Origin: a virus
Strand: one strand, 5' to 3'
Virus record (IMG/VR): IMGVR_UViG_3300030382_001359
Coordinates: 1-32,470 of that record
Length of the DNA: 32,470 nt
In this document: in pieces, positions 324 to 31,712 of the stretch
How the letters are laid out: each line of letters opens with the position of its first letter
How positions within the stretch are numbered: the stretch's first letter is position 1
Notes under the pieces: model-generated
Told to the model about the DNA's origin: nothing
The model's input: only the letters and a program-made list of their open reading frames with translations
The model's database searches: none
Position numbers and translations under genes: made by a program

Positions 324-369
324 GTATCTTACTTCAGATACACTAGCATAGTAAATCTAGACCTGTCAA
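324..369 (-). promoter_or_regulatory. Promoter P1 with 18-bp palindromic operator candidate
   Basis: On the minus strand a perfect -35 (TTGACA, 364-369) is followed at 18 bp by a weak -10 (TAGTGT, 340-345). Next comes GTATCT-N6-AGATAC (324-341), an inverted repeat with perfect 6-bp arms located around the expected transcription start. The same GTATC...ATAC element recurs at two other promoters in this arm. It lies 20 bp before the 77-304 start codon. The -35 and palindrome are clear; the -10 is poor. Confidence 0.5.
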
Positions 370-611
370 GACCCTTTTTGTTTAGCCTCCCGAACCCACA
401 GTCGTTTGTGACAGGCCGGACATTGCTGGGGATTATCCGTTCGTGGACGCCAGATATGACCGCATTTGGAATGAGGGCACTCGCGAAACTTTTGCTCAAC
501 TAGCTTGGTGATTAGGGGTGCTTTGTTTAGGAATGTTTTATTAGGTATCATAGTATCTAAGATACTACAGGGCGATGATGTTGTCAACGTGTTAGACTTA
601 GACCGCGTCAT
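366..611 (-). CDS. Small zinc-ribbon protein
   Basis: Taken from the ATG at 611, which has an AAAGGAGAGG ribosome-binding site 8-9 bases upstream, the product is 81 residues. The C-terminal half is a zinc ribbon: C45-x4-C50 (ECPHSKCGHIW) and C64-x2-C67 (CPACHKR). The N-terminal 20 residues are low in complexity (Ser/Thr rich). A second start is possible at ATG 551 (61 residues, beginning MIPNKTF): a sigma70-type promoter at 559-587 would put the transcription start at or one base before that ATG, giving a leaderless message. The zinc ribbon is intact in both forms. Phage proteins of this type often bind DNA or RNA polymerase, but nothing here shows which. Confidence 0.65.
   Translation of the reverse strand: MTRSKSNTLTTSSPCSILDTMIPNKTFLNKAPLITKLVEQKFRECPHSKCGHIWRPRTDNPQQCPACHKRLWVREAKQKGS
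552..587 (-). promoter_or_regulatory. Promoter P4 overlapped by a 15-bp perfect palindrome
   Basis: Minus strand: TTGACA (582-587), 17-bp spacer, TATCTT (559-564). The -10 lies inside the perfect palindrome AGTATCT-A-AGATACT (552-566), a likely operator. The predicted start of transcription falls at about 551-552, on or next to an in-frame ATG. A further GATACC follows at once. The promoter lies inside the longer version of the 366-611 reading frame. Confidence 0.6.
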
Positions 612-632
612 ATGACGTACCTCTCCTTTCGT

Positions 633-662
633 GGGGGTCACAGCCTTGTTGCTGTGGCCCTC
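633..662. other. 12-bp hairpin in the leader of the 366-611 gene
   Basis: The arms GGTCACAGC and GCTGTGGCC (one G-U pair), extended outward by GC pairs, close a 6-base loop (cttgtt). On the plus strand the hairpin is followed by CTCCTTTTATG, a weak terminator-like tail. On the minus strand it sits about 20 bp before the AAAGGAGAGG Shine-Dalgarno of the 366-611 gene. It could end plus-strand read-through or be a leader hairpin; no plus-strand gene lies upstream, so the second reading is somewhat more natural. Confidence 0.45.
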
Positions 663-681
663 CTTTTATGTTATCGTGGTT

Positions 682-769
682 GGACTAGCCGTCCTGTTTC
701 TCGGCCAGCTAGTGGATGGGCAACCATCATGAAACAGCACTAGTTGGTTGGGGAATTGGACGGCTTTTT
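682..769 (+). ncRNA. Candidate structured small RNA ending in a U tract
   Basis: No coding frame is apparent. An 8-bp outer helix AGCCGTCC/GGACGGCT (687-694 with 758-765) is followed directly by TTTT, as at an intrinsic terminator. On the 5' side it continues into a second helix TGTTTC/GAAACA (695-700 with 731-736). Inside that is GATGG-GCAA-CCATC (715-728), a 5-bp stem with a GNRA tetraloop. CTAGTG (709-714) and CACTAG (738-743) could pair as a pseudoknot. The U tract exists only on the plus strand. It matches no RNA family I recognise. It could be a free small RNA or a leader attenuator for the 1074-1373 gene. Confidence 0.4.
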
Positions 770-1073
770 ATCGTTCACGGATAGTCGAGCTTAGGTCGAG
801 ACTTAAAATTGACCTGGAGTTTTAGCCCAGTGATGGGATAGACGGTAAGGGGCACACCGGGACTAAGTGCAAGCTGACCACCGTAGCCAAGAAAGATGTC
901 GGTAGTTGATGGTAGAACGTTCCTAGACAGGCTGACGCTCTACTCGATGAGGGCTAGTCCCGGCGTGATAAGTCACGAACTTCCATACCTCCAGCTAAAT
1001 TAGAATTAGCTACGGGGGGTAGGGGGGCCGTGATAATAGCTACTGCGTACTGGAGCAGTGGAGACGGGTTGTT
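770..1073 (+). other. Gene-free, hairpin-rich leader region
   Basis: No supported gene on either strand. Short inverted repeats are dense: AGGTC/GACCT (793-797, 811-815); CCCA-GTGA-TGGG with a GNRA loop (826-837); ACGGT/ACCGT (842-846, 880-884) enclosing GCAC/GTGC (852-855, 867-870); GTAGA/TCTAC (912-916, 939-943); CGTGA-TAAG-TCACG (964-977); AGCTAA/TTAGCT (993-1011); ACTGC/GCAGT (1042-1059). GGCTAGTCC (952-960) is complementary to GGACTAGCC (682-690). Two runs of six G flank TA near 1014-1027. The last part holds the GGAGAC ribosome-binding site (1060-1065) of the next gene. The region may be a long structured leader or ncRNA; individual short pairings can arise by chance. Confidence 0.35.
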
Positions 1074-1373
1074 ATGACGTTAGCAGAGATACTGGAGTAC
1101 TTAGAAGAGTTCGGAGACGGGGCTTTGTTGATGGAGCCGCGCCAGGACTACGATGATTGCATCGTTGGAATCGGTGGAAGGTTCCACGATGGTCCACTCG
1201 CGATTTACAGTGTCGAGCGCGTGCTGGCGGTGCTGATGCAAGATGACGAGGTCGATGAGGAGACGGCTATGGAATGGTTCGACTTCAACATCATCGGTGC
1301 TTGGAACGGCCCAGGCACACCGATATATGTTGAGGAGTCGGCGATGCGCGTAGAAAAGCCCCCGGCTGATTAA
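1074..1373 (+). CDS. Conserved-looking small phage protein, lone plus-strand gene in the arm
   Basis: A 99-residue acidic protein that starts MTLAEILEYLEEFGDGALL and has a conserved-looking core (DDCIVGIGGRF, PLAIYSVERVL, EWFDFNIIGAWNGPGTPIYV). It resembles short phage early proteins I have seen annotated as hypothetical; I cannot assign a function. GGAGAC lies 8 bases before the ATG. The gene runs against all of its neighbours, follows a structured noncoding leader, and its stop codon lies inside a terminator hairpin. It therefore looks like an independent transcription unit of the moron type. The minus-strand frame over the same bases is less protein-like and has no ribosome-binding site. 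Confidence 0.75.
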   Translation: MTLAEILEYLEEFGDGALLMEPRQDYDDCIVGIGGRFHDGPLAIYSVERVLAVLMQDDEVDEETAMEWFDFNIIGAWNGPGTPIYVEESAMRVEKPPAD

Positions 1374-1391
1374 GCTAGGGGCTTTCTTGTT
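1354..1391. terminator. Bidirectional intrinsic terminator between convergent genes
   Basis: AAAGCCCC (1355-1362) pairs with GGGGCTTT (1378-1385). The inner stem GGCT/AGCT extends it, closing a GATTA loop. The plus-strand tail reads TTTCTTGTTGT; on the minus strand the 3' arm ends in TTTT. The hairpin contains the stop codon of the plus-strand gene and lies just past the stop of the minus-strand 1393-1578 gene, so it can serve both. Confidence 0.8.
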
Positions 1392-1392
1392 G

Positions 1393-1578
1393 TCATGATT
1401 TATCCTCGTCTTCAATGGTGTCTACCAGAGTCTCGGTTACGTTGCAGTCTCCAGCCATCGCATTTATTAAAGCTTCTCCTCCCCAGTCGGCTGGTGTTGT
1501 TTTAGAACTGAGTGGGCCACCAAAATCTTGGTCCACGACAAAGCCCTCTATCTTGATGCGGTAAACTTTGATGCTCAT
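1393..1578 (-). CDS. Small unknown phage protein
   Basis: A 61-residue protein starting MSIKVYRIKIEGFVV and ending in an acidic tail (TIEDEDKS). The N-terminus looks like a beta strand. I recognise no domain. The start is fixed by AAGGAGACACC abutting the ATG, the same leader found at several other genes of this arm. It lies 22 bp after the upstream 1601-1825 gene and stops at the bidirectional terminator, so it is the last gene of its minus-strand unit. Confidence 0.7.
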   Translation of the reverse strand: MSIKVYRIKIEGFVVDQDFGGPLSSKTTPADWGGEALINAMAGDCNVTETLVDTIEDEDKS

Positions 1579-1600
1579 GGTGTCTCCTTTTTGATTAAGA

Positions 1601-1825
1601 TTATTTCGTGTCGATTAGAACCGGGACTAGGTCATAGCTTTCGTGGTCGCAGTAGCAGGTGCCGATGCAGTCGCACTCAGGCCAGCGTGAGACTATCTGT
1701 TCGTTGGTCGAGTCATCTATGTAATAGACCCAATCATTGATGGTGATGTACACGCACCCTGCGATTGCGTCATCGACCTCGACTACTAACGGTTCTTTGC
1801 CGATTCTTCGGATGTCTACTTTCAT
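1601..1825 (-). CDS. Small Cys-cluster protein, unknown
   Basis: A 74-residue protein. The first 40 residues are alternating hydrophobic and polar, suggesting a small beta sheet (MKVDIRRIGKEPLVVEVDDA). Then comes a cysteine cluster, C51, C53, C57, C59 and H61 (CDCIGTCYCDH), which could hold a metal. AAGGAGACACC precedes the ATG at 1825. Function unknown. It sits between other tiny genes with the same leader and is probably co-transcribed with them. Confidence 0.7.
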   Translation of the reverse strand: MKVDIRRIGKEPLVVEVDDAIAGCVYITINDWVYYIDDSTNEQIVSRWPECDCIGTCYCDHESYDLVPVLIDTK

Positions 1826-1851
1826 GGTGTCTCCTTCTCTTTAGCTTAGGC

Positions 1852-2109
1852 TTACTCGTCTTCTTCGATTTGCTGGTGTTCATCCGCAAACGCTTGGCCG
1901 ATTAGTTTGAACAGGTTGGTCCGTCGTTCCTCAGCCGCTTCGTCGGTGTCAAAGCTGCTTCGTTCTGCCCATAGGGTATGCCCATCCTTAAAGGTTAGCT
2001 GGAACATCACTTTCTGGCTCTGTACGTAAGCGAAAGCGCGAGTGACCGTGGCTCTCAGCCCTACTCGCTTGCCGTATTGCATCTGGACTTGCTCTCCCAG
2101 ATTTATCAT
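1852..2109 (-). CDS. Small unknown phage protein
   Basis: An 85-residue protein from the ATG at 2109 (MINLGEQVQMQYGKRVGLRA), chosen because GGAGACACC abuts this ATG; the frame is open 13 codons further upstream but with no ribosome-binding site there. The first half looks beta-rich. The C-terminal half has a helical, charged stretch (DTDEAAEERRTNLFKLIGQAF) and an acidic tail. No family recognised. It begins about 40 bp after a perfect hairpin (2149-2178) separating it from the 2188-2373 gene. Confidence 0.7.
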   Translation of the reverse strand: MINLGEQVQMQYGKRVGLRATVTRAFAYVQSQKVMFQLTFKDGHTLWAERSSFDTDEAAEERRTNLFKLIGQAFADEHQQIEEDE

Positions 2110-2148
2110 GGTGTCTCCTTCGGTTTGGTTTAGGTCTAACCGGACCAA

Positions 2149-2178
2149 GCCAATCCCTGAAAAGATTCAGGGGCTGGC
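2149..2178. other. Intergenic hairpin without U tract
   Basis: CCCTGAA-AAGA-TTCAGGG (2155-2172) is a perfect 7-bp stem with a 4-base loop. Beyond a two-base mismatch on each side, it is extended by GCCA/TGGC. No T run follows on either strand, so it is not a standard intrinsic terminator. It lies between two minus-strand genes and may serve mRNA processing or stability. Confidence 0.55.
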
Positions 2179-2187
2179 TGAAGCGGG

Positions 2188-2373
2188 TTAGGCTCGTTGC
2201 GGGTATGGCCGGGCCTCCCGGCTAGTACCTTGCACGTACTCCTTCATTTCCTCCTCACTTAGACTTGCTACTTCCTTCCCTAGACTGACCTCGTCCCTGG
2301 AAATATTGTCGTACCGTCGATTGATTTGGTGGTACTGGTTAACGAGTCGCTCTACCTTGGTTTTGAATAACAT
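2188..2373 (-). CDS. Small charged helical protein
   Basis: A 61-residue protein, MLFKTKVERLVNQYHQINRR at the start, rich in Lys, Arg and Glu and predicted by eye to be helical or coiled-coil through about residue 48 (EVSLGKEVASLSEEEMKEYV). GAGGAGAG lies 4 bases before the ATG. It is the first gene after promoter P2 (2406-2434), which is the best sigma70-type match in the window. No family recognised. Confidence 0.65.
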   Translation of the reverse strand: MLFKTKVERLVNQYHQINRRYDNISRDEVSLGKEVASLSEEEMKEYVQGTSREARPYPQRA

Positions 2374-2405
2374 GGTCTCTCCTCTCTTTTTAATGTGCCT
2401 TAGTC

Positions 2406-2434
2406 AGTATAGTTGATCTGATACATCTTGTCAA
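2406..2434 (-). promoter_or_regulatory. Promoter P2, TTGACA-N17-TATACT
   Basis: Minus strand: TTGACA (2429-2434), 17-bp spacer, TATACT (2406-2411). The spacer and -10 contain GTATC-N9-ATAC, an 18-bp element shared with promoters P1 and P3. It lies downstream of the 2448-2816 gene and drives 2188-2373 and the genes beyond it. Confidence 0.8.
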
Positions 2435-2447
2435 ATGGTTCCGCAAA

Positions 2448-2816
2448 TTACAATGCCCAGCCAGCAAATAAGTACTGGCCCTTCGCTAGTTCGATTGCGA
2501 GTGCCGGGGCCGCTTTGCTGTCGTAGACCTCAAACATTTTGGCGATAGGCAACCTAGGATATTTGGCCTGTACCTTGTCGGTCTTCGGGTTGCCGTCATC
2601 GTCTTTGCCGATGCGACCTAAGTCGCGTACCGCTTTGATTACCGTAACCCGTCGCATCCCTTTGGGCCGTGGGAATTCGACCATGCTCCGCTTCTCTGCG
2701 ATAGTCCCAGTGTAACCGGCGTGACCGTGGTCCCACTGGGCCTGCTTCACTAGATTGTCAAAGGCTACTTGTGCCGTCTTTCCCTTGCCTACGTTCATGA
2801 ATTCTGAACCGCCCAT
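2448..2816 (-). CDS. Conserved-looking phage protein (HGHAGYTGTIAEK motif)
   Basis: A 122-residue protein. Residues 26-46 contain WDHGHAGYTGTIAEKRSM, a motif that I recall from small uncharacterised phage proteins. The middle is basic (RPKGMRRVTVIKAVRDLGR) and the C-terminus hydrophobic (YLFAGWAL). AAAGGAGGGAAGCACCAT precedes the ATG at 2816. A Gly/His-rich loop of this kind might be a metal or nucleotide site, but no catalytic role is shown. It lies upstream of promoter P2 and is likely the end of the transcript that begins at P3. Confidence 0.7.
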   Translation of the reverse strand: MGGSEFMNVGKGKTAQVAFDNLVKQAQWDHGHAGYTGTIAEKRSMVEFPRPKGMRRVTVIKAVRDLGRIGKDDDGNPKTDKVQAKYPRLPIAKMFEVYDSKAAPALAIELAKGQYLFAGWAL

Positions 2817-2843
2817 ATGGTGCTTCCCTCCTTTCGTTTAGGT

Positions 2844-3233
2844 CTAACTTAACTGATTATTTAGCTCCATAAGTATTTGGTAATCGCAAACACCGTTGCA
2901 ATCGGGGGCGTGGCCCTCACATAGAAATTGACTTATCTCGTATGTCCACTCTGGCTCATCGTCAATGCACCCGTCTTCATCTTGAAGCTCTTCGGCGTTC
3001 TCGTCATATGTGCGAACCACCCAATATATCTCGTCGGGACAGTCCCTAGACGATTGGTAATCCTTCATCATGGATTCGGGCAGGACGGTAAATCCGTGGC
3101 CCTCGTATTGACAGTCCCTGCACTCAAATCCGTCTTCGTATTTCAGGTCATCCAGTTTCCGTTGGAGGGACCTGACTGCACGTTCAACAGTTTGGTGCGT
3201 TACCTCTATGATTTCCTCGTCTTTCGTTGTCAT
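2844..3233 (-). CDS. Acidic Cys-containing phage protein, unknown
   Basis: A 129-residue, strongly acidic protein. An N-terminal helix (about residues 5-35, THQTVERAVRSLQRKLDDL) is followed by C38xxC41 (ECRDCQYEGHGF) and, near the C-terminus, FLCEGHAPDCNGVCDYQ. The spacing would allow a zinc site built from both halves. GGAGACACC abuts the ATG at 3233. It shares a transcription unit with 3256-3597 (22-bp gap). No family recognised. Confidence 0.65.
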   Translation of the reverse strand: MTTKDEEIIEVTHQTVERAVRSLQRKLDDLKYEDGFECRDCQYEGHGFTVLPESMMKDYQSSRDCPDEIYWVVRTYDENAEELQDEDGCIDDEPEWTYEISQFLCEGHAPDCNGVCDYQILMELNNQLS

Positions 3234-3255
3234 GGTGTCTCCGCGCTGTTTAGAT

Positions 3256-3597
3256 TTAGGTTATCGGCACAAATTGTCCGGTATGATTGTTGGTCAGTCG
3301 GATGCCGTAGTCATCAAACGTCGGTCCGAAATTATCCCAGAGTGCCTTCATCAATCGGGAGTAGCGAGGCCCATCCCTTAGAGCGGTATCGCCTACTGAC
3401 CGAAACCGTATCTCCCATTGGTCATCGACGTACCCTTCCACGCCGTGAGCTTCTATGACATCGTGGAAGGCAGGCTCTGGGAAAAGGGTTGTTAGTGCCC
3501 TATTCCAGCCATCGTGGCTATTGGGAGTAGCCTTGAAGCAATATTTCTGACGCTTCAGCATCTTCATGCTTTCAGCCGCGCTGTGCTTTGGTATCAT
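3256..3597 (-). CDS. Unknown phage protein, first gene after promoter P3
   Basis: A 113-residue protein starting MIPKHSAAESMKMLKRQKYC. It has a basic N-terminus, aromatic residues throughout (WNRALTTLFPEPAF, QWEIRFRSVGD, ALWDNFGPTFDDYGIRL) and no obvious motif. GGAGACACC abuts the ATG. Promoter P3 lies 33-62 bp upstream, so this is the first gene of a minus-strand transcript that probably includes 2844-3233 and 2448-2816. Confidence 0.65.
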   Translation of the reverse strand: MIPKHSAAESMKMLKRQKYCFKATPNSHDGWNRALTTLFPEPAFHDVIEAHGVEGYVDDQWEIRFRSVGDTALRDGPRYSRLMKALWDNFGPTFDDYGIRLTNNHTGQFVPIT

Positions 3598-3629
3598 GGT
3601 GTCTCCTTGCTTTTTAATATCGCCTGTTG

Positions 3630-3659
3630 AGTATATTAGGTCTGATACTTAACGGTCAA
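3630..3659 (-). promoter_or_regulatory. Promoter P3, TTGACC-N18-TATACT
   Basis: Minus strand: TTGACC (3654-3659), 18-bp spacer, TATACT (3630-3635). It holds the same 18-bp GTATC...ATAC element as P2, with its right half overlapping the -10. It drives the 3256-3597 gene. Confidence 0.75.
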
Positions 3660-4603: not shown

Positions 4604-4647
4604 CTTGAGACTCTCCAATCGTGCAGATTCGGTCTAGTCTGACCGTG

Positions 4648-4674
4648 TCAGCGGCTGAGACTCTCAGCCGCTGA
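4648..4674. repeat. 27-bp perfect palindrome (13-1-13)
   Basis: TCAGCGGCTGAGA (4648-4660), one centre base, then its exact reverse complement (4662-4674). As RNA it forms a stem of about 11-12 bp. There is no T run, so it is not a usual terminator. It lies in the gap between the 4684-4884 and 4295-4603 genes. Its centre GAGAGTCTC (minus strand) is repeated in the ribosome-binding leader of the next gene. Confidence 0.85.
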
Positions 4675-4683
4675 ACCAGTGGA

Positions 4684-4914: not shown

Positions 4915-4957
4915 CGGCTGATTCAGCCGCGCCAGAGGCTCAGAATCTGAGCCTCTG
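4915..4957. repeat. Tandem perfect palindromes (7-1-7 and 12-1-12)
   Basis: CGGCTGA-T-TCAGCCG (4915-4929) is followed three bases later by CAGAGGCTCAGA-A-TCTGAGCCTCTG (4933-4957). Both are perfect and centred on a single base, like the palindrome at 4648-4674. They lie in the gap upstream of the 4684-4884 gene, after the stop of the GP88-like gene. No T tract follows on either strand. Confidence 0.85.
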
Positions 4958-4977
4958 AATCAGTGAATCAGGTTAGA

Positions 4978-6295: not shown

Positions 6296-6691
6296 TTAAT
6301 TCTTGTAGATTTCGCAACCTGTGGCACCAAACCACAGGCTGACATTGCTAGGGAATGCGACACGCTCGCCGCTAGCAAGTACCATCAGGAAAGATTCAGC
6401 CTGTAAATCTAGCGTCAATCTTCCCAAGTATTTTCCCGTAGGTTTAGACTCGCCTATCGTGCCACCGACTAGAGCCACCACTTCCCGACATTTTGCCTTG
6501 ATACGCTTGCACCCCTTAGCAATACTTGACGGATTATTTATCAGGATATTGGAAAGGCTGAAATTAACGCCGTGAGTCACTCCGGTTTCCTTGACTAGAT
6601 AGCCATTGGATGCGTGAGCATTGGCAATCGTCCAAATATCTGAGCCTTGATTCGCTTTCTTAGCGTTTAGGTTTCTATAGATGCCTTTCAT
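6296..6691 (-). CDS. Unknown phage protein, first gene of the leftward operon
   Basis: A 131-residue protein starting MKGIYRNLNAKKANQGSDIW. It is basic and looks beta-rich, with conserved-looking stretches (GYLVKETGVTHGVNFSLS, CKRIKAKCREVVALVGG, GERVAFPSNVSLWFGATGC). It resembles uncharacterised early phage proteins I have seen but no domain is recognised. GGAGCGGCACCA precedes the ATG. It starts at the divergent intergenic region and is the first gene transcribed leftward. Confidence 0.7.
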   Translation of the reverse strand: MKGIYRNLNAKKANQGSDIWTIANAHASNGYLVKETGVTHGVNFSLSNILINNPSSIAKGCKRIKAKCREVVALVGGTIGESKPTGKYLGRLTLDLQAESFLMVLASGERVAFPSNVSLWFGATGCEIYKN

Positions 6692-6726
6692 TGGTGCCGC
6701 TCCAATTAATTTGATATTGGTTTTAT

Positions 6727-6760
6727 ATCATAGATAATATACAGATTGCACGCCTAACAA
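6727..6760 (-). promoter_or_regulatory. A+T-rich zone, probable leftward promoter
   Basis: The leftward operon must start here. On the minus strand TTGTTA (6755-6760) is followed by several possible -10 boxes: TATTAT (6734-6739, 15-bp spacer), TTATCT (17-bp spacer) and TATGAT (6727-6732). None is ideal with its -35, so the exact promoter cannot be fixed. Confidence 0.4.
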
Positions 6761-6831
6761 AACGAATATTAAACCAATTTTGCCAAAAAACGTATATTTC
6801 CTGTGATATTTAGGCCGAGGTGGATGATATT

Positions 6832-6840
6832 TGATATAAT
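6832..6840 (+). promoter_or_regulatory. Extended -10 promoter candidate for the packaging operon
   Basis: TG-A-TATAAT matches the extended -10 consensus exactly; no recognisable -35 lies 17 bp upstream, as is common for extended -10 promoters. It points toward terS and would give a leader of about 195 bases containing the hairpins described for 6857-7010. Confidence 0.5.
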
Positions 6841-6856
6841 TGAGGCTAAATATCCT

Positions 6857-7010
6857 GCTAATGGAAGTTATCCAACATTAGCGGCGAGGCGTGTCTACGT
6901 GGATAGGCTAGCGATAGGAGCGGCTTAATTGGGCGGGTTCCCTAGTGATAGGGGCCGCAGTGCTAGCGAGTAGGCGATTGTGACTTAACCGAGCCGCAAT
7001 CTAGCGCAAA
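6857..7010 (+). other. Hairpin and repeat cluster upstream of terS (cos/pac candidate)
   Basis: No gene is seen. GCTAATG/CATTAGC (6857-6863, 6876-6882) encloses TGGA/TCCA. GCGGCT/AGCCGC (6920-6925, 6992-6997) could enclose CCCTA-GTGA-TAGGG (6940-6953, GNRA loop). GCTAG/CTAGC (6962-6966, 7001-7005) nests ATTG/CAAT. CTAGCG occurs three times (6908, 6963, 7001), the first two as GCTAGCGA(G)TAGG direct repeats. In many phages the packaging site lies just upstream of or within terS, so iterated repeats here could be TerS binding sites; they could equally be a structured mRNA leader. Confidence 0.4.
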
Positions 7011-7040: not shown

Positions 7041-7514
7041 GTGTCTAAATTAACTAGTAAACAGCTTATATTCTGCGACTCTATCATCAGTGGATTGAAT
7101 CAGACCGATGCCTATAAGGCGGCATATGATACGGAAAATATGCTACCTGCTACCATTTCAAACAATGCTTATATGCTGATGAATCACAGCGACATCACAG
7201 CGAATATACAAGCACAAAGAGACAGTATATTAGCCTCTGTGACGTTAACTAAAGAACGTGCTATTTCAGAGGCTATGACTAATCTCAGTATGGCTAGAGA
7301 CTTGGCACAGATAGGGCCTGCTAATCAGTCATTAAAGCTAGCGGCTGAATTCTCAGGACTGACTCAGTCTGTACAATCATCAGCTCAATTAGTTACACAA
7401 GTCACAGTGGTATTGAATCGTGCTACTGATACTGATTCAGTGGTGATTGAGGCTGAATCACTGAGCCTATCAGAGCCTGATACTAGCTTAGAACTTGAGA
7501 CTGGCACAGAGTAG
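7041..7514 (+). CDS. terS: Terminase small subunit (DNA-packaging recognition)
   Basis: A 157-residue protein. The N-terminal domain LTSKQLIFCDSIISGLNQTD (4-23) followed by AYKAAYDTENM and a TISNNAYMLMNHSDI segment is the classic small-terminase helix-turn-helix layout (LTxKQxxFxxxxxxGxNxTxAxxxAY). It binds the packaging site and regulates the large subunit. The C-terminus (from about residue 115) is Ser/Thr/Glu-rich and looks disordered. The start is GTG with AGGGAAG upstream. The position, first rightward gene and before terL with one small gene between, agrees. The gap to the next gene is 161 bp, with a weak terminator-like hairpin. Confidence 0.8.
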   Translation: MSKLTSKQLIFCDSIISGLNQTDAYKAAYDTENMLPATISNNAYMLMNHSDITANIQAQRDSILASVTLTKERAISEAMTNLSMARDLAQIGPANQSLKLAAEFSGLTQSVQSSAQLVTQVTVVLNRATDTDSVVIEAESLSLSEPDTSLELETGTE

Positions 7515-7547
7515 CATTAGAAAGATACATAGGGTGTGTATACCCCC

Positions 7548-18449: not shown

Positions 18450-19331
18450 ATGGCTGTAGGACGAACTACCACTGACTCACTGGATGCTTCTTTGCCGACA
18501 ATTGTCGGGGCGTCTAGGAATGTTCGTGAGAATGAAGGCGAAATCATGTCCACGGTGGACCGGCAAACCCTTGGTAAAGGAATGGGTATCACATGGCACG
18601 AGGTTTCTTATGCCAAGGTTACTGCCCAGGCCATCACCGAGGATACGATTCTCGACAACCCTCAGCAAATGTCGGATACTGACTTCCCTCTGACCCCAAC
18701 CGTGGTAGGTATTGAAACACTTATCACTGACCGGGTAGGAGAGCGTATCGTCCAACACGGGGTTGCCAAACTAGGGGTTCTGGCTCAAAACGCCATGACT
18801 CGCAAGAAGAATCAAGACGGCTTGACTCAACTAGATAGTTTTACTACTTCTCTAGCTGGAGCAGGTACTACTTTGACTTATGGTCATATCATGGCTGCTT
18901 CAGTACGGATTACTGGTAACACTACCGAGCCAGGTCCTGCCCCGCTCCATGCCCAATTACACGCTTTCCAGATAAAGGACATCACTGACGAGATGACTTC
19001 CCCTGTGGGAACTTATGACATCAGCAGCGGTGGCCTGAGTGCAGATGCATTCCGCAACGGATTCAAGGGTATGATTGGAAACGTCTCCATCCATGAGAAT
19101 AACGAGATATCAATTGATAGCTCTTCAAATGACGCGAAAGGCGGAGTTTATTCCAAGATGGCTCTTGTCCTCGTTCAGGGCCGTAGCCCACGGGCTGTAG
19201 CGGTTCGACGTGAAGACATCGGCGGTGGCGCGACTATCATGTACCACTATGATGAGTACGTGTACGGGGAACGGTCTTCGGGTAACTGGGGATATGAAAT
19301 CCTGAGTGACGCGACTACGCCGACTTCGTAA
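18450..19331 (+). CDS. Major capsid protein
   Basis: A 293-residue protein with a strong GGAGG ribosome-binding site, right after the scaffold. The N-terminal arm (SLDASLPTIVGASRNVRENE) precedes a helix-turn-strand mix (TDFPLTPTVVGIETLITDRV, LAQNAMTRKKNQDGLTQLD). The end has the beta-rich pattern of an HK97-like P domain (ALVLVQGRSPRAVAVRREDI). Length and place fit the coat subunit of a tailed phage. Its stop overlaps the next start (TAATG). No catalytic motif is expected. The fold itself cannot be proven by eye. Confidence 0.8.
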   Translation: MAVGRTTTDSLDASLPTIVGASRNVRENEGEIMSTVDRQTLGKGMGITWHEVSYAKVTAQAITEDTILDNPQQMSDTDFPLTPTVVGIETLITDRVGERIVQHGVAKLGVLAQNAMTRKKNQDGLTQLDSFTTSLAGAGTTLTYGHIMAASVRITGNTTEPGPAPLHAQLHAFQIKDITDEMTSPVGTYDISSGGLSADAFRNGFKGMIGNVSIHENNEISIDSSSNDAKGGVYSKMALVLVQGRSPRAVAVRREDIGGGATIMYHYDEYVYGERSSGNWGYEILSDATTPTS

Positions 19332-19534
19332 TGAATTCCCGGCGTGAAGCCTGGGCAAAAGCACATGGTCCTATTCCTAAAGAATGGGTTGTGCATAATT
19401 TGAATGGTGACCCTTCGGACATACGGATAGAGAATCTAGCCGCTGTCCCTAGGAATAACATCTTTTTGGCAGTGGCTCCCTACAGGGAGCGTATACGAAA
19501 TTTAGAGCTAAAGCTTAAACAAGTAGGTGAATAA
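19331..19534 (+). CDS. Degenerate HNH-like short protein
   Basis: A 67-residue protein, REAWAKAHGPIPKEWVVHNL followed by NGDPSDIRIENLAAVPRNN. This is the core of an HNH homing-type nuclease (usual form GPIPxGxxVHHxDGxxxNNRxENLxxxxR). The usual His-His pair reads His-Asn (VVHNLNG) and the family's DNA-binding extensions are absent, so activity is doubtful. The A of its ATG is the last base of the capsid stop. It may be a domesticated remnant or a small DNA-binding protein. Confidence 0.75.
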   Translation: MNSRREAWAKAHGPIPKEWVVHNLNGDPSDIRIENLAAVPRNNIFLAVAPYRERIRNLELKLKQVGE

Positions 19535-28786: not shown

Positions 28787-29761
28787 ATGAGCGGCCTAGT
28801 AACAACAACCACCCGTAACGGTAAAGGCTCTGGCTACGCTGACGGGAATCCTACGTTCCGACGCTACTCCTCGTCTGGCACCATCCAGAAGCCTTTGGGT
28901 TGCACCATCATCGTGATGGAAGTCATCGGAGGTGGAGGTGGAGGTGGCGAAGGTGGCGATGGTCATTTGTCAGGCTCAGGAGGAGGCGGTGGTGGAGGGG
29001 CCATGGCTCGTGCAACTTTTAATGCTGAGTCGCTTGGTTCAACGTTGACGTTGGCTGTCCCTGCTGGCGCTAGTGGTGCAGGGGCAGGCACATCAGATTC
29101 AGGGTCGATTGGTGGCACTGTTACCGTAACCGATGACGCTACCAGTAAAGTTATTCTTTCAGCATATGGCGGTGGTGGTGGCGACTCAGGCACTGGTGGG
29201 TTTTCTGCTAATACAGGTGCCGCTGGAGGTGGCGGCGGAGGCACTGGAGCCGCTGGCACTTCTGCATCAACAGTAACACAAGGTGTTGGCGGAAACCCTA
29301 CTATACAAGGCTCGACACAAGGCGATTCTTTGGGTGGACGCGGCGCGGAAGGTAGTGCTGGCACAGGAGGTGCCGCCCATCAAGCAGAATATGGCGGCGG
29401 TGGCGGTGGGGCTGGACATGGTGGGTCTACTGCTGGCTCCAGTGGTGGCAGTTCTATATTTGGAGCAGGCGGAGGTGGCGGTGGCGAGAATGAGAGCCGC
29501 GCCCGTCGTTCTGGCGGTGCTTGGGGTCAGTACACTAGCCCAGGCACTCTAGGTTCTTCTGGAAACGTGGCTGGGACAGATGGCGATGACCACCCATTTG
29601 GTTGTGGTGATGGCGGTTCTGGCGGTGCAGGAACTGGTGGCGGAGGAAACGGTGGAGTGCCAGGGGGCGGAGGTGGAGCCGGAGGTCAGAATACAGGCAT
29701 ATCTGGCGGAGGAACTGCTGGGAATGGCGCACGCGGCGAAATCAGGATGTGGTTTTACTGA
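28787..29761 (+). CDS. Glycine-rich adhesin-like protein 1
   Basis: A 324-residue protein. A short N-terminal domain (about 1-45, ending IIVMEVIGG) is followed by poly-Gly runs (GGGGGGGEGG, SGGGGGGGAMARATFNA), a strand motif (LTLAVPAGASG), then conserved blocks PTIQGS, SLGGRG, AEYGGGGGGAG, SSIFGAGGGG, GGAW, FGCG, GVPGGGGGAGG and a closing RGEIRMWFY. This layout matches glycine-rich tail-tip adhesins, in which polyglycine II helices display loops that bind the host receptor. It is the first of three tandem paralogues and ends with a TGATG overlap. Confidence 0.75.
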   Translation: MSGLVTTTTRNGKGSGYADGNPTFRRYSSSGTIQKPLGCTIIVMEVIGGGGGGGEGGDGHLSGSGGGGGGGAMARATFNAESLGSTLTLAVPAGASGAGAGTSDSGSIGGTVTVTDDATSKVILSAYGGGGGDSGTGGFSANTGAAGGGGGGTGAAGTSASTVTQGVGGNPTIQGSTQGDSLGGRGAEGSAGTGGAAHQAEYGGGGGGAGHGGSTAGSSGGSSIFGAGGGGGGENESRARRSGGAWGQYTSPGTLGSSGNVAGTDGDDHPFGCGDGGSGGAGTGGGGNGGVPGGGGGAGGQNTGISGGGTAGNGARGEIRMWFY

Positions 29762-30753
29762 TGAGCGGATTGATTAGAAAAAATCAAGCTGGCGTTAGTG
29801 GACTGGTTGGGACAGACATGGACTTCCAGCGTTTCACAACCACCAGCGCAACATGGACTAAGCCAGACGGCGTTTCTGTTGTCTGGATAGAGTGCATCGG
29901 AGCAGGTGGTGGTGGCGGTGGAGGCATGGGTTCTGGTGGGTCAACTAGGAACGCAGGCGGTGGAGGCGGCGGGGCTATGGCCTGGGCTTGTTTTTCTGCT
30001 GACGCATTACCAGCCACATTAGCTATCGTTGCGGGCGATGGCGGCAATGCTGGTTCCGCTGGTTCTTCTGGCGGTGCTGGAGGAAACGGCGTAGCAGGAG
30101 GCAATTCCACTGTCACTGATGCTGACCCCACCCCAGATAAAATCATACTGCAAGCATTTGGTGGAGGGTTTGGGGCAGGAAGCTCAAATGGCACTTACGG
30201 AGGTGGCGGTGGCGGTGGGGGTACTGGAGCCGTAGGCGGTAACGCTTCTGGCGCAACAGAAGGTGATGGTGGCGACCCTACTATACAAGGCTCGACAGAG
30301 GGAAATTCACTAGCAGGCCGTGGTGGTAAGGGCGGCGATAATAGTGCCGCTGGTGGCAATGCAGAATATGGCGGTGGAGGCGGTGGTGGAGCCGCCGCTG
30401 GAGGAAGTTCGCTACACGGCGCAGGTGGCGGGGGTGCCGGTGGAACACTTGCAGACAATGGTACTGCTGGAGGGGCATGGTCAAGCTATGCCGTAGGCGG
30501 TGGAGGAGCCGCCGCTGATACTTTTGGAGAAGCTGGTACAGCAGGCCCCGATAGTGAGTTTGGTTGCGGCGGGGGCGGTGGCGGTGGTGCATCCAGTGGT
30601 TCAGCAGGCGGTGTCAATGGTGGCGCAGGAGGGGCAGGCGGTGTGCCTGGAGGCGGTGGTGGTTCCGGTGGAGTAGGAAGCACAGGTCAAAGTAAATCTG
30701 GCGGCGCAGGTGGAGCAGGTGGCAGAGGCGAGGTGAGAATATGGGCCTGGTAA
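29761..30753 (+). CDS. Glycine-rich adhesin-like protein 2
   Basis: A 330-residue protein from the ATG at 29761, whose A is the last base of the upstream stop; an ATG four codons earlier lies within the upstream gene and breaks the MSGL(V/I) N-terminus shared with its paralogue. It begins MSGLIRKNQAGVSGLVGTDM and passes through FQRFTTTSATWTKPDGVSVV and the same blocks as paralogue 1: PTIQGS, SLAGRG, AEYGGGGGGGA, SSLHGAGGGG, GGAWSSY, FGCGGGG, GVPGGGGGSGG, ending GEVRIWAW. Loops between blocks differ from the neighbours. A probable receptor-binding role is inferred from the family pattern. Confidence 0.75.
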   Translation: MSGLIRKNQAGVSGLVGTDMDFQRFTTTSATWTKPDGVSVVWIECIGAGGGGGGGMGSGGSTRNAGGGGGGAMAWACFSADALPATLAIVAGDGGNAGSAGSSGGAGGNGVAGGNSTVTDADPTPDKIILQAFGGGFGAGSSNGTYGGGGGGGGTGAVGGNASGATEGDGGDPTIQGSTEGNSLAGRGGKGGDNSAAGGNAEYGGGGGGGAAAGGSSLHGAGGGGAGGTLADNGTAGGAWSSYAVGGGGAAADTFGEAGTAGPDSEFGCGGGGGGGASSGSAGGVNGGAGGAGGVPGGGGGSGGVGSTGQSKSGGAGGAGGRGEVRIWAW

Positions 30754-31712
30754 ATGCAAACGCAGTAGGAATGTCTGGCCTGGTTGCCGCTCCTGTCACT
30801 GTCCACACGGTCACGACTGACGGCTCCACGGCATATGTGATTCCAGCAGGGGCTACGCGGATTTACATTGAATGTATTGGAGCAGGTGGCGGTGGTGGTG
30901 GCGGTTCAAACGGCAACACCGATGCAGGGGGAGGCGGAGGGGGCGGTGCGATAGCGCGTGGTGTCTACGATGCCAAATCCATTCCAGCATCATTGACTAT
31001 TGCTGTAGGTGCAGGTGGAAATGGTGGCGCACTAGATACTTCTGGCACCATAGGCGGAAATTCATCAGTCACTGGTGGTACGTTTGCTCTGAAAGCATTT
31101 GGCGGTGGGCTGGGCTTTAAGTCCGGTACTGGTGCAAATGAAAGAGGCGGTGGTGGTGGTGGAGGCGGCACAGGTGCGGCTGGTTTGCCTGGGGCGGAAA
31201 ATGCAGGTGGTGCTGGCGGTGGCCCGACTATCCAAAGCTCATCTGTAGGTAATTCTCTAGGTGGTCGTGGCGGTGCAGGCTCAGGAACTAGCGGCACCGC
31301 TGGTTTCTCTGCCGAATATGGAGGCGGGGGTGGTGCGATTGGTTCGTCTGGTGCCCATTCCGCACACGCTGGAAGTTCCATATTCGGAGCAGGCGCGGGT
31401 GGTGCTGGGGGTGCTGGCAGTTCCGCCGGAGGACAAGGCGGGGCTTGGAGTTCATATACTGCTGGTGGGGCAGGAAATGCTGGAGGTCGTGCGGCGGCTG
31501 GGACTGCTGGTACAAGTAGAACCTACGGTTGCGGTAATGGCGGCGGCGGTGGTGGTGCTGGTCAATCTGGCACTGCTGGAGGCGCAGGGGGCGCAGGGGG
31601 AACTCCTGGCGGCGGAGGCGGTGGCGGCGGAGCGCATGGAGATGGCGGAGATACAGGTGCTGGCGTAGGCGGCGCAGGCGCAGACGGCGCAGTTAGAATC
31701 TATACATGGTAG
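30741..31712 (+). CDS. Glycine-rich adhesin-like protein 3
   Basis: A 323-residue protein. The ATG at 30741, with GAGG upstream, lies 13 bases inside the end of the previous gene. A second ATG at 30771 would align with the MSGLV start of the paralogues but has no usable spacing to a ribosome-binding site. Blocks: IECIGAGGGGGGG, PTIQSS, SLGGRG, AEYGGGGGA, SSIFGAGAGG, GGAWSSY, YGCGNGG, GTPGGGGGGGG and a terminal GAVRIYTW. Between blocks the sequence differs strongly from the other two, as expected for variable binding loops. Confidence 0.75.
   Translation: MGLVNANAVGMSGLVAAPVTVHTVTTDGSTAYVIPAGATRIYIECIGAGGGGGGGSNGNTDAGGGGGGGAIARGVYDAKSIPASLTIAVGAGGNGGALDTSGTIGGNSSVTGGTFALKAFGGGLGFKSGTGANERGGGGGGGGTGAAGLPGAENAGGAGGGPTIQSSSVGNSLGGRGGAGSGTSGTAGFSAEYGGGGGAIGSSGAHSAHAGSSIFGAGAGGAGGAGSSAGGQGGAWSSYTAGGAGNAGGRAAAGTAGTSRTYGCGNGGGGGGAGQSGTAGGAGGAGGTPGGGGGGGGAHGDGGDTGAGVGGAGADGAVRIYTW

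Follow-up and report, generated by a model that had tools for sequence, protein, structure and literature searches.

An 18-bp dyad repeated at promoter-like sequences of a phage record is a probable operator of a single regulator

Five copies of an 18-bp dyad lie at promoter-like sequences of the virus record analysed here, and they are probably operators of a single dimeric DNA-binding regulator, most likely encoded by the phage itself in a part of its genome that the record lacks. The window, i.e., the whole stretch of DNA under analysis, is the complete virus record of 32,470 bases. Small leftward genes occupy its first 6.7 kb, and the terminase and structural genes run rightward from 7 kb.

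The element GTATCWGA-N6-ATAC occurs without mismatch at 324-341, 2407-2424 and 3631-3648, in each case on the minus strand and at a leftward promoter. These are the three promoters for which the preliminary description had reported it, and the 32.5-kb record contains no other exact match. The element is built on the dyad GTATC-N8-GATAC, which is perfect at 324 and carries one mismatch each at 2407 and 3631. We built a symmetric matrix from the three exact sites and scanned the record with it. The top match outside the training sites was 6725-6742, followed by a weak match at 7511 and then by 6792-6809. Both 6725-6742 and 6792-6809, which the preliminary description had missed, fall into the divergent region that extends from the start of a leftward gene at 6691 to the terminase small subunit gene at 7041. 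The match at 7511-7528 was left out of the set, as its score of 13.4 lies inside the range of shuffled sequence. The consensus of the element approximates GTATATT-N3-TNTGATAY, that is, GTATM and KATAY half-sites placed 8 bp apart. The five sites are as follows.

324..341, minus strand: predicted operator 1, GTATCTGAAGTAAGATAC, a GTATC-N8-GATAC dyad without mismatch, covering the estimated start point of P1
2407..2424, minus strand: predicted operator 2, GTATCAGATCAACTATAC, in the spacer and -10 of P2, upstream of gene 2373-2188
3631..3648, minus strand: predicted operator 3, GTATCAGACCTAATATAC, in the spacer and -10 of P3, upstream of gene 3597-3256
6725..6742, minus strand: predicted operator 4, GTATATTATCTATGATAT, overlapping the leftward extended -10 TGATATAAA, upstream of gene 6691-6296
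6792..6809, plus strand: predicted operator 5, GTATATTTCCTGTGATAT, immediately 5' of the rightward extended -10

The candidate promoters to which these sites relate, together with a further possible one (P4), are listed below.

369-364 and 345-340, minus strand: P1 (likely), TTGACA and TAGTGT separated by 18 bp, read from the sequence
2434-2429 and 2411-2406, minus strand: P2, TTGACA and TATACT
3659-3654 and 3635-3630, minus strand: P3, TTGACC and TATACT
587-582 and 564-559, minus strand: P4 (possible), TTGACA and TATCTT
6722..6730, minus strand: P5, leftward extended -10 TGATATAAA, which operator 4 overlaps
6832..6840, plus strand: P6, rightward extended -10 TGATATAAT, 5' of the terminase small subunit gene and lacking a recognisable -35

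In P2 and P3, the -10 hexamer (TATACT at 2411-2406 and 3635-3630) shares bases with the right half of the element, as had been described before. At 324-341 there is no -10 overlap of this kind, and the element sits over the start point of the likely P1. With transcription starts estimated (near 2399, 3623, 6715 and 6847 for P2, P3, P5 and P6, respectively), its register is approximately -25 to -8 in P2 and P3, -27 to -10 in P5 and -8 to +11 in P1, and operator 5 is centred near -46 relative to the extended -10 of P6. Judging from their positions, the sites overlap promoter elements in a way that could in principle let binding block or help the polymerase. The record contains eight sigma70-like sites that match at 10 or more of 12 positions. 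According to our gene list, five of them lie inside genes, including the promoter at 552-566, and all three outside genes overlap an element. The extended -10 motif TGNTATAAW occurs three times, which is about the chance expectation, and two of these occurrences adjoin operators 4 and 5. Because the leaders and promoters of P2 and P3 are 75% identical over 57 bp, from the start codon to the operator, these two sites are not fully independent, and their similarity may be owed partly to duplication.

The preliminary description had counted the sequence at 552-566 (minus strand, AGTATCTTAGATACT; AGTATCTAAGATACT on the plus strand) as a fourth site. It is indeed a clean palindrome over the possible -10 of P4, but its half-sites are spaced by 3 instead of 8 bp, which is a different geometry, and its best 18-bp score of 12.5 lies inside the range of best matches in shuffled windows. 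If P4 is real, its start would lie next to the ATG at 551 and give a leaderless message; a rival ATG at 611 has a good ribosome-binding site and would instead place 552-566 inside a gene. The palindrome was excluded from the operator set on account of its spacing, its score and its possibly intragenic position, and its membership is doubtful. The gene in question (366-611) encodes a zinc-ribbon-like small protein with these two possible starts, i.e., ATG 611 with its ribosome-binding site or leaderless ATG 551 from P4. Next to it, 612-1073 comprises ~460 bases that hold no convincing gene on either strand, in surroundings that are densely coded, and a rightward terminator-like hairpin is located within this stretch at 633-662.

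The recurrence of the element exceeds chance in several comparisons. With up to two mismatches to GTATCWGA-N6-ATAC allowed, the record holds 15 matches, compared with a mean of 4.3 and at most 12 in shuffles. A matrix rebuilt from all five sites ranks those sites 1 to 5 with scores of 15.9 to 20.1 (in-sample), while the next match scores 13.4 and 20 shuffled windows yielded best matches between 10.3 and 15.4. The preliminary description had proposed to check whether such a matrix matches genes as often as promoters. It does not: all five sites, which are the best matches, are intergenic, although only ~6% of the record is intergenic by our gene list. As the pattern had otherwise been chosen after being seen, we also ranked all 1534 intergenic 18-mers by the look-alikes that each has in the rest of the intergenic sequence. 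The ribosome-binding and start context came first and the element second; of the five look-alikes found for its seed 18-mer at 3631, four are the remaining operators. The element reached a score of 14, compared with 10 or less for the best 18-mer of any kind in shuffles (mean 6.6; n = 60, dinucleotide shuffles per region). Recurrence of one site at several promoters beyond chance is what the operator set of a single regulator should display.

Viral contigs were then searched with a promoter-operator composite, which returned two near-identical relatives (L006 and L008). Three other composite matches (L004, L005 and L007) stem from phages without DNA similarity to the window and were taken as chance. 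A protein search found no relatives of the P1 and P4 gene products. Another relative, L010, is ~95% identical to the window over 4.4 kb. Its counterpart of gene 6296-6691 differs at 79 of 396 positions (20%), and the 78-bp block 6693-6770, containing operator 4 and the leader of this gene (6691-6296), is unchanged. Both sites of the divergent region, operators 4 and 5, are present in L010. Operator 5 carries a single G-to-A change, which brings it closer to operator 4 and raises its score from 15.9 to 17.7; this one change in 18 positions compares with 10 in 63 neighbouring positions, a difference that is not significant on its own. At the position expected for a -35 of P6 four bases are changed, and TGNTATAAT is changed only at N.

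More distant relatives keep the genes and lack the element. L011, whose terminase is 77% identical, retains the gene downstream of P3 with a different gene in front and no element. L052 retains the gene downstream of P2 (85%) behind a canonical promoter, TTGACA-17-TACGAT, again with no element, and none was found at two further strong promoters of L052. Because the promoters of these more distant relatives lack it, the element is, by this comparison, dispensable for such promoters and an add-on to them, not core promoter. Regulation is evidently different between the relatives, as is common in phage control circuits. Apart from the element, G+C-rich hairpins of the type CTGAGNCTCAG recur between the small leftward genes (2148-2180, 4640-4680 and 4918-4960), and the same type occurs many times between the genes of L052 (e.g., 381-443, 843-905, 1355-1417 and 2901-2963). 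These hairpins are perhaps terminators or RNA-processing sites.

A phage-encoded helix-turn-helix protein, as envisaged in the preliminary description, or any other regulator was not recognised in the window. No DNA-binding match was obtained among the proteins of the leftward region (Pfam, PHROGs) or among ten other proteins (Pfam), and the predicted structures of the P5 and P2 gene products are of too low confidence to reveal a DNA-binding fold (mean pLDDT of 31 and 68, respectively). The neighbours of the divergent region are a 131-aa protein that has no family match and the terminase small subunit. Since none of the proteins scanned with Pfam and PHROGs was recognised as an integrase, polymerase or repressor, the record is probably an incomplete genome fragment, and the missing regulator gene is therefore weak evidence against phage ownership of the site. 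No contig extending the window was found when its left end was used as query.

Relatives of the terminase in cellular genomes were confined to three contigs from Chloroflexota metagenome bins (45% identity), and the best matches in cultured phages are only ~24% identical. We therefore infer that the phage is an uncultured one whose host probably belongs to the Chloroflexota. Two observations concern the structural region: a small HNH endonuclease is encoded between structural genes at 19331-19534 (HNH_3, E 1.2e-12), and three successive glycine-rich proteins of 323-334 aa, alike in sequence and apparently tandem duplicates, are encoded near the structural genes at 28787-31712.

A protein that lies over the spacer and -10 of a promoter excludes RNA polymerase, as is established promoter biology. 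A dimer of the proposed regulator would cover these parts at P2, P3 and P5 and the start site at P1, so that the early leftward genes could be shut off together. At operator 5, just upstream of an extended -10 lacking a -35, the same protein might activate rightward transcription of the terminase and structural genes. Such an operator set may serve lysogeny control or early-late switching. The earlier proposal that one regulator controls several small operons remains the best reading, and it has gained two additional divergent sites, a score reached in none of 60 shuffles and relatives whose promoters are free of the element; what did not hold up is the shared geometry of 552-566 and the full independence of P2 and P3, and no regulator was recognised within the window that would decide between phage and host.

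Downstream of P6 and ahead of the terminase small subunit gene, the stretch 6907-7001 resembles a structured leader RNA. Relative to L010, both partners are substituted in four base pairs, which belong to two helices, and 21 of 21 proposed pairs remain possible; GCGGC/GCCGC is replaced by GCAAT/ATTGC, and one more G-C pair by A-U. The helices were proposed after the changes had been seen and from two sequences only, and 36 of 500 shuffles in a control attain an equal value. The folding energy is ordinary (z -0.7), no Rfam family matches 6907-7001, and the RNA model matches near relatives only. A structured leader RNA at this position is thus a possible assignment. An unlikely, more far-reaching reading joins these parts into an early-to-late switch, in which one new Chloroflexota-phage regulator, with a fold outside current family libraries, would silence four early leftward promoters and activate P6 as the terminase promoter, with a new structured leader RNA at the start of its transcript. 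In partial literature coverage we found no study of gene regulation in Chloroflexota phages. A defined operator could serve for isolating the regulator in a DNA pull-down and as a basis for predicting early-expressed genes, and fragments of one phage could more easily be joined through the control sites that they share.

The site could also be owned by a host transcription factor and have been borrowed by the phage to read the state of its host, with the same operator mechanics. This would agree with the failure to recognise a DNA-binding protein among the scanned proteins of the record and with the differing presence of the site in near relatives. However, five sites within 7 kb, two of them between divergent units, form an arrangement that is usual for regulators encoded by the phage itself, and the absence of the gene from a probably incomplete record says little, so that we regard a host owner as improbable. 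Somewhat further from the evidence is the view that there is no operator at all, and that P2 and P3 arose by copying of a single promoter-leader cassette while the other sites are chance AT-rich look-alikes. The 75% likeness of P2 and P3 over 57 bp and the coincidence of the right half with the -10 in both speak for this view, but the sites at 324, 6725 and 6792 sit in unrelated sequence and in other registers, the left half lies outside the -10, and the best shuffled intergenic 18-mer of any kind scores below the element. Moreover, the dyad is kept while its flanks drift in L010 for operator 4 and, weakly, for operator 5. Copying without an operator is thus quite improbable.

The constant position relative to the -10 in P2 and P3 would also suit another alternative, in which the element, instead of being an operator, belongs to an unusual class of promoters recognised by a sigma factor or polymerase of the phage. 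Against this stand the different register at P1 and P6, the dyad nature of the element, the near-consensus sigma70 hexamers retained in P2 and P3, and the L052 promoters of the same type that do without it; we consider such a class very improbable. Taken together, an operator of a single dimeric regulator accounts best for the five sites.

This operator set can be compared with several known phage systems. In lambda, the CI/Cro operators, which are dyads of 17-18 bp, cover the -10 and spacer, and through them one protein can repress one promoter and activate its neighbour. The lambda-type immunity layout is not found here: no repressor gene was recognised next to the divergent operators, the divergent region holds only two sites, and the sequence is another one. 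The stoperators of cluster A mycobacteriophages are asymmetric sites with a 13-bp core, mostly in one orientation and dispersed over the genome (PMC6550527). They resemble our set as repressor sites dispersed over a phage genome, whereas the window has five dyads restricted to promoter regions of the first 7 kb. Because stoperators are asymmetric, membership in this class was ruled out. In phi29, four p4 sites (CTTTTT-15 bp-AAAATG) lie in one region between the early promoters A2b/A2c and the late promoter A3, and p4 represses the early promoters and activates the late one, which has a poor -35 (PMC3100819). Inverted-repeat sites between early and late promoters, overlap with the early promoter and a poor -35 on the late side are features that the layout of P5 and P6 appears to share. 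The element differs from CTTTTT-15 bp-AAAATG, however, and is also present at three distant promoters, and activation would here be a proposed role. In the Bacillus phage SPbeta, the 15-bp motif SPBRE is found at many promoters and is bound by the master repressor MrpR, a tyrosine-recombinase-like protein; SPBRE was first predicted by sequence alone and later confirmed, with the shut-off of lytic genes as its proposed role (PMC10516654). SPBRE differs from our element in length and apparently also in sequence, and its repressor is known, whereas the protein for the 18-bp dyad is a predicted one, and no integrase-like protein was recognised among the proteins scanned. The likeness lies in one short element that is repeated at many promoters of one phage and was found from sequence. 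The strategy itself, one regulator governing early genes together, is a familiar one and is new only in this phage.
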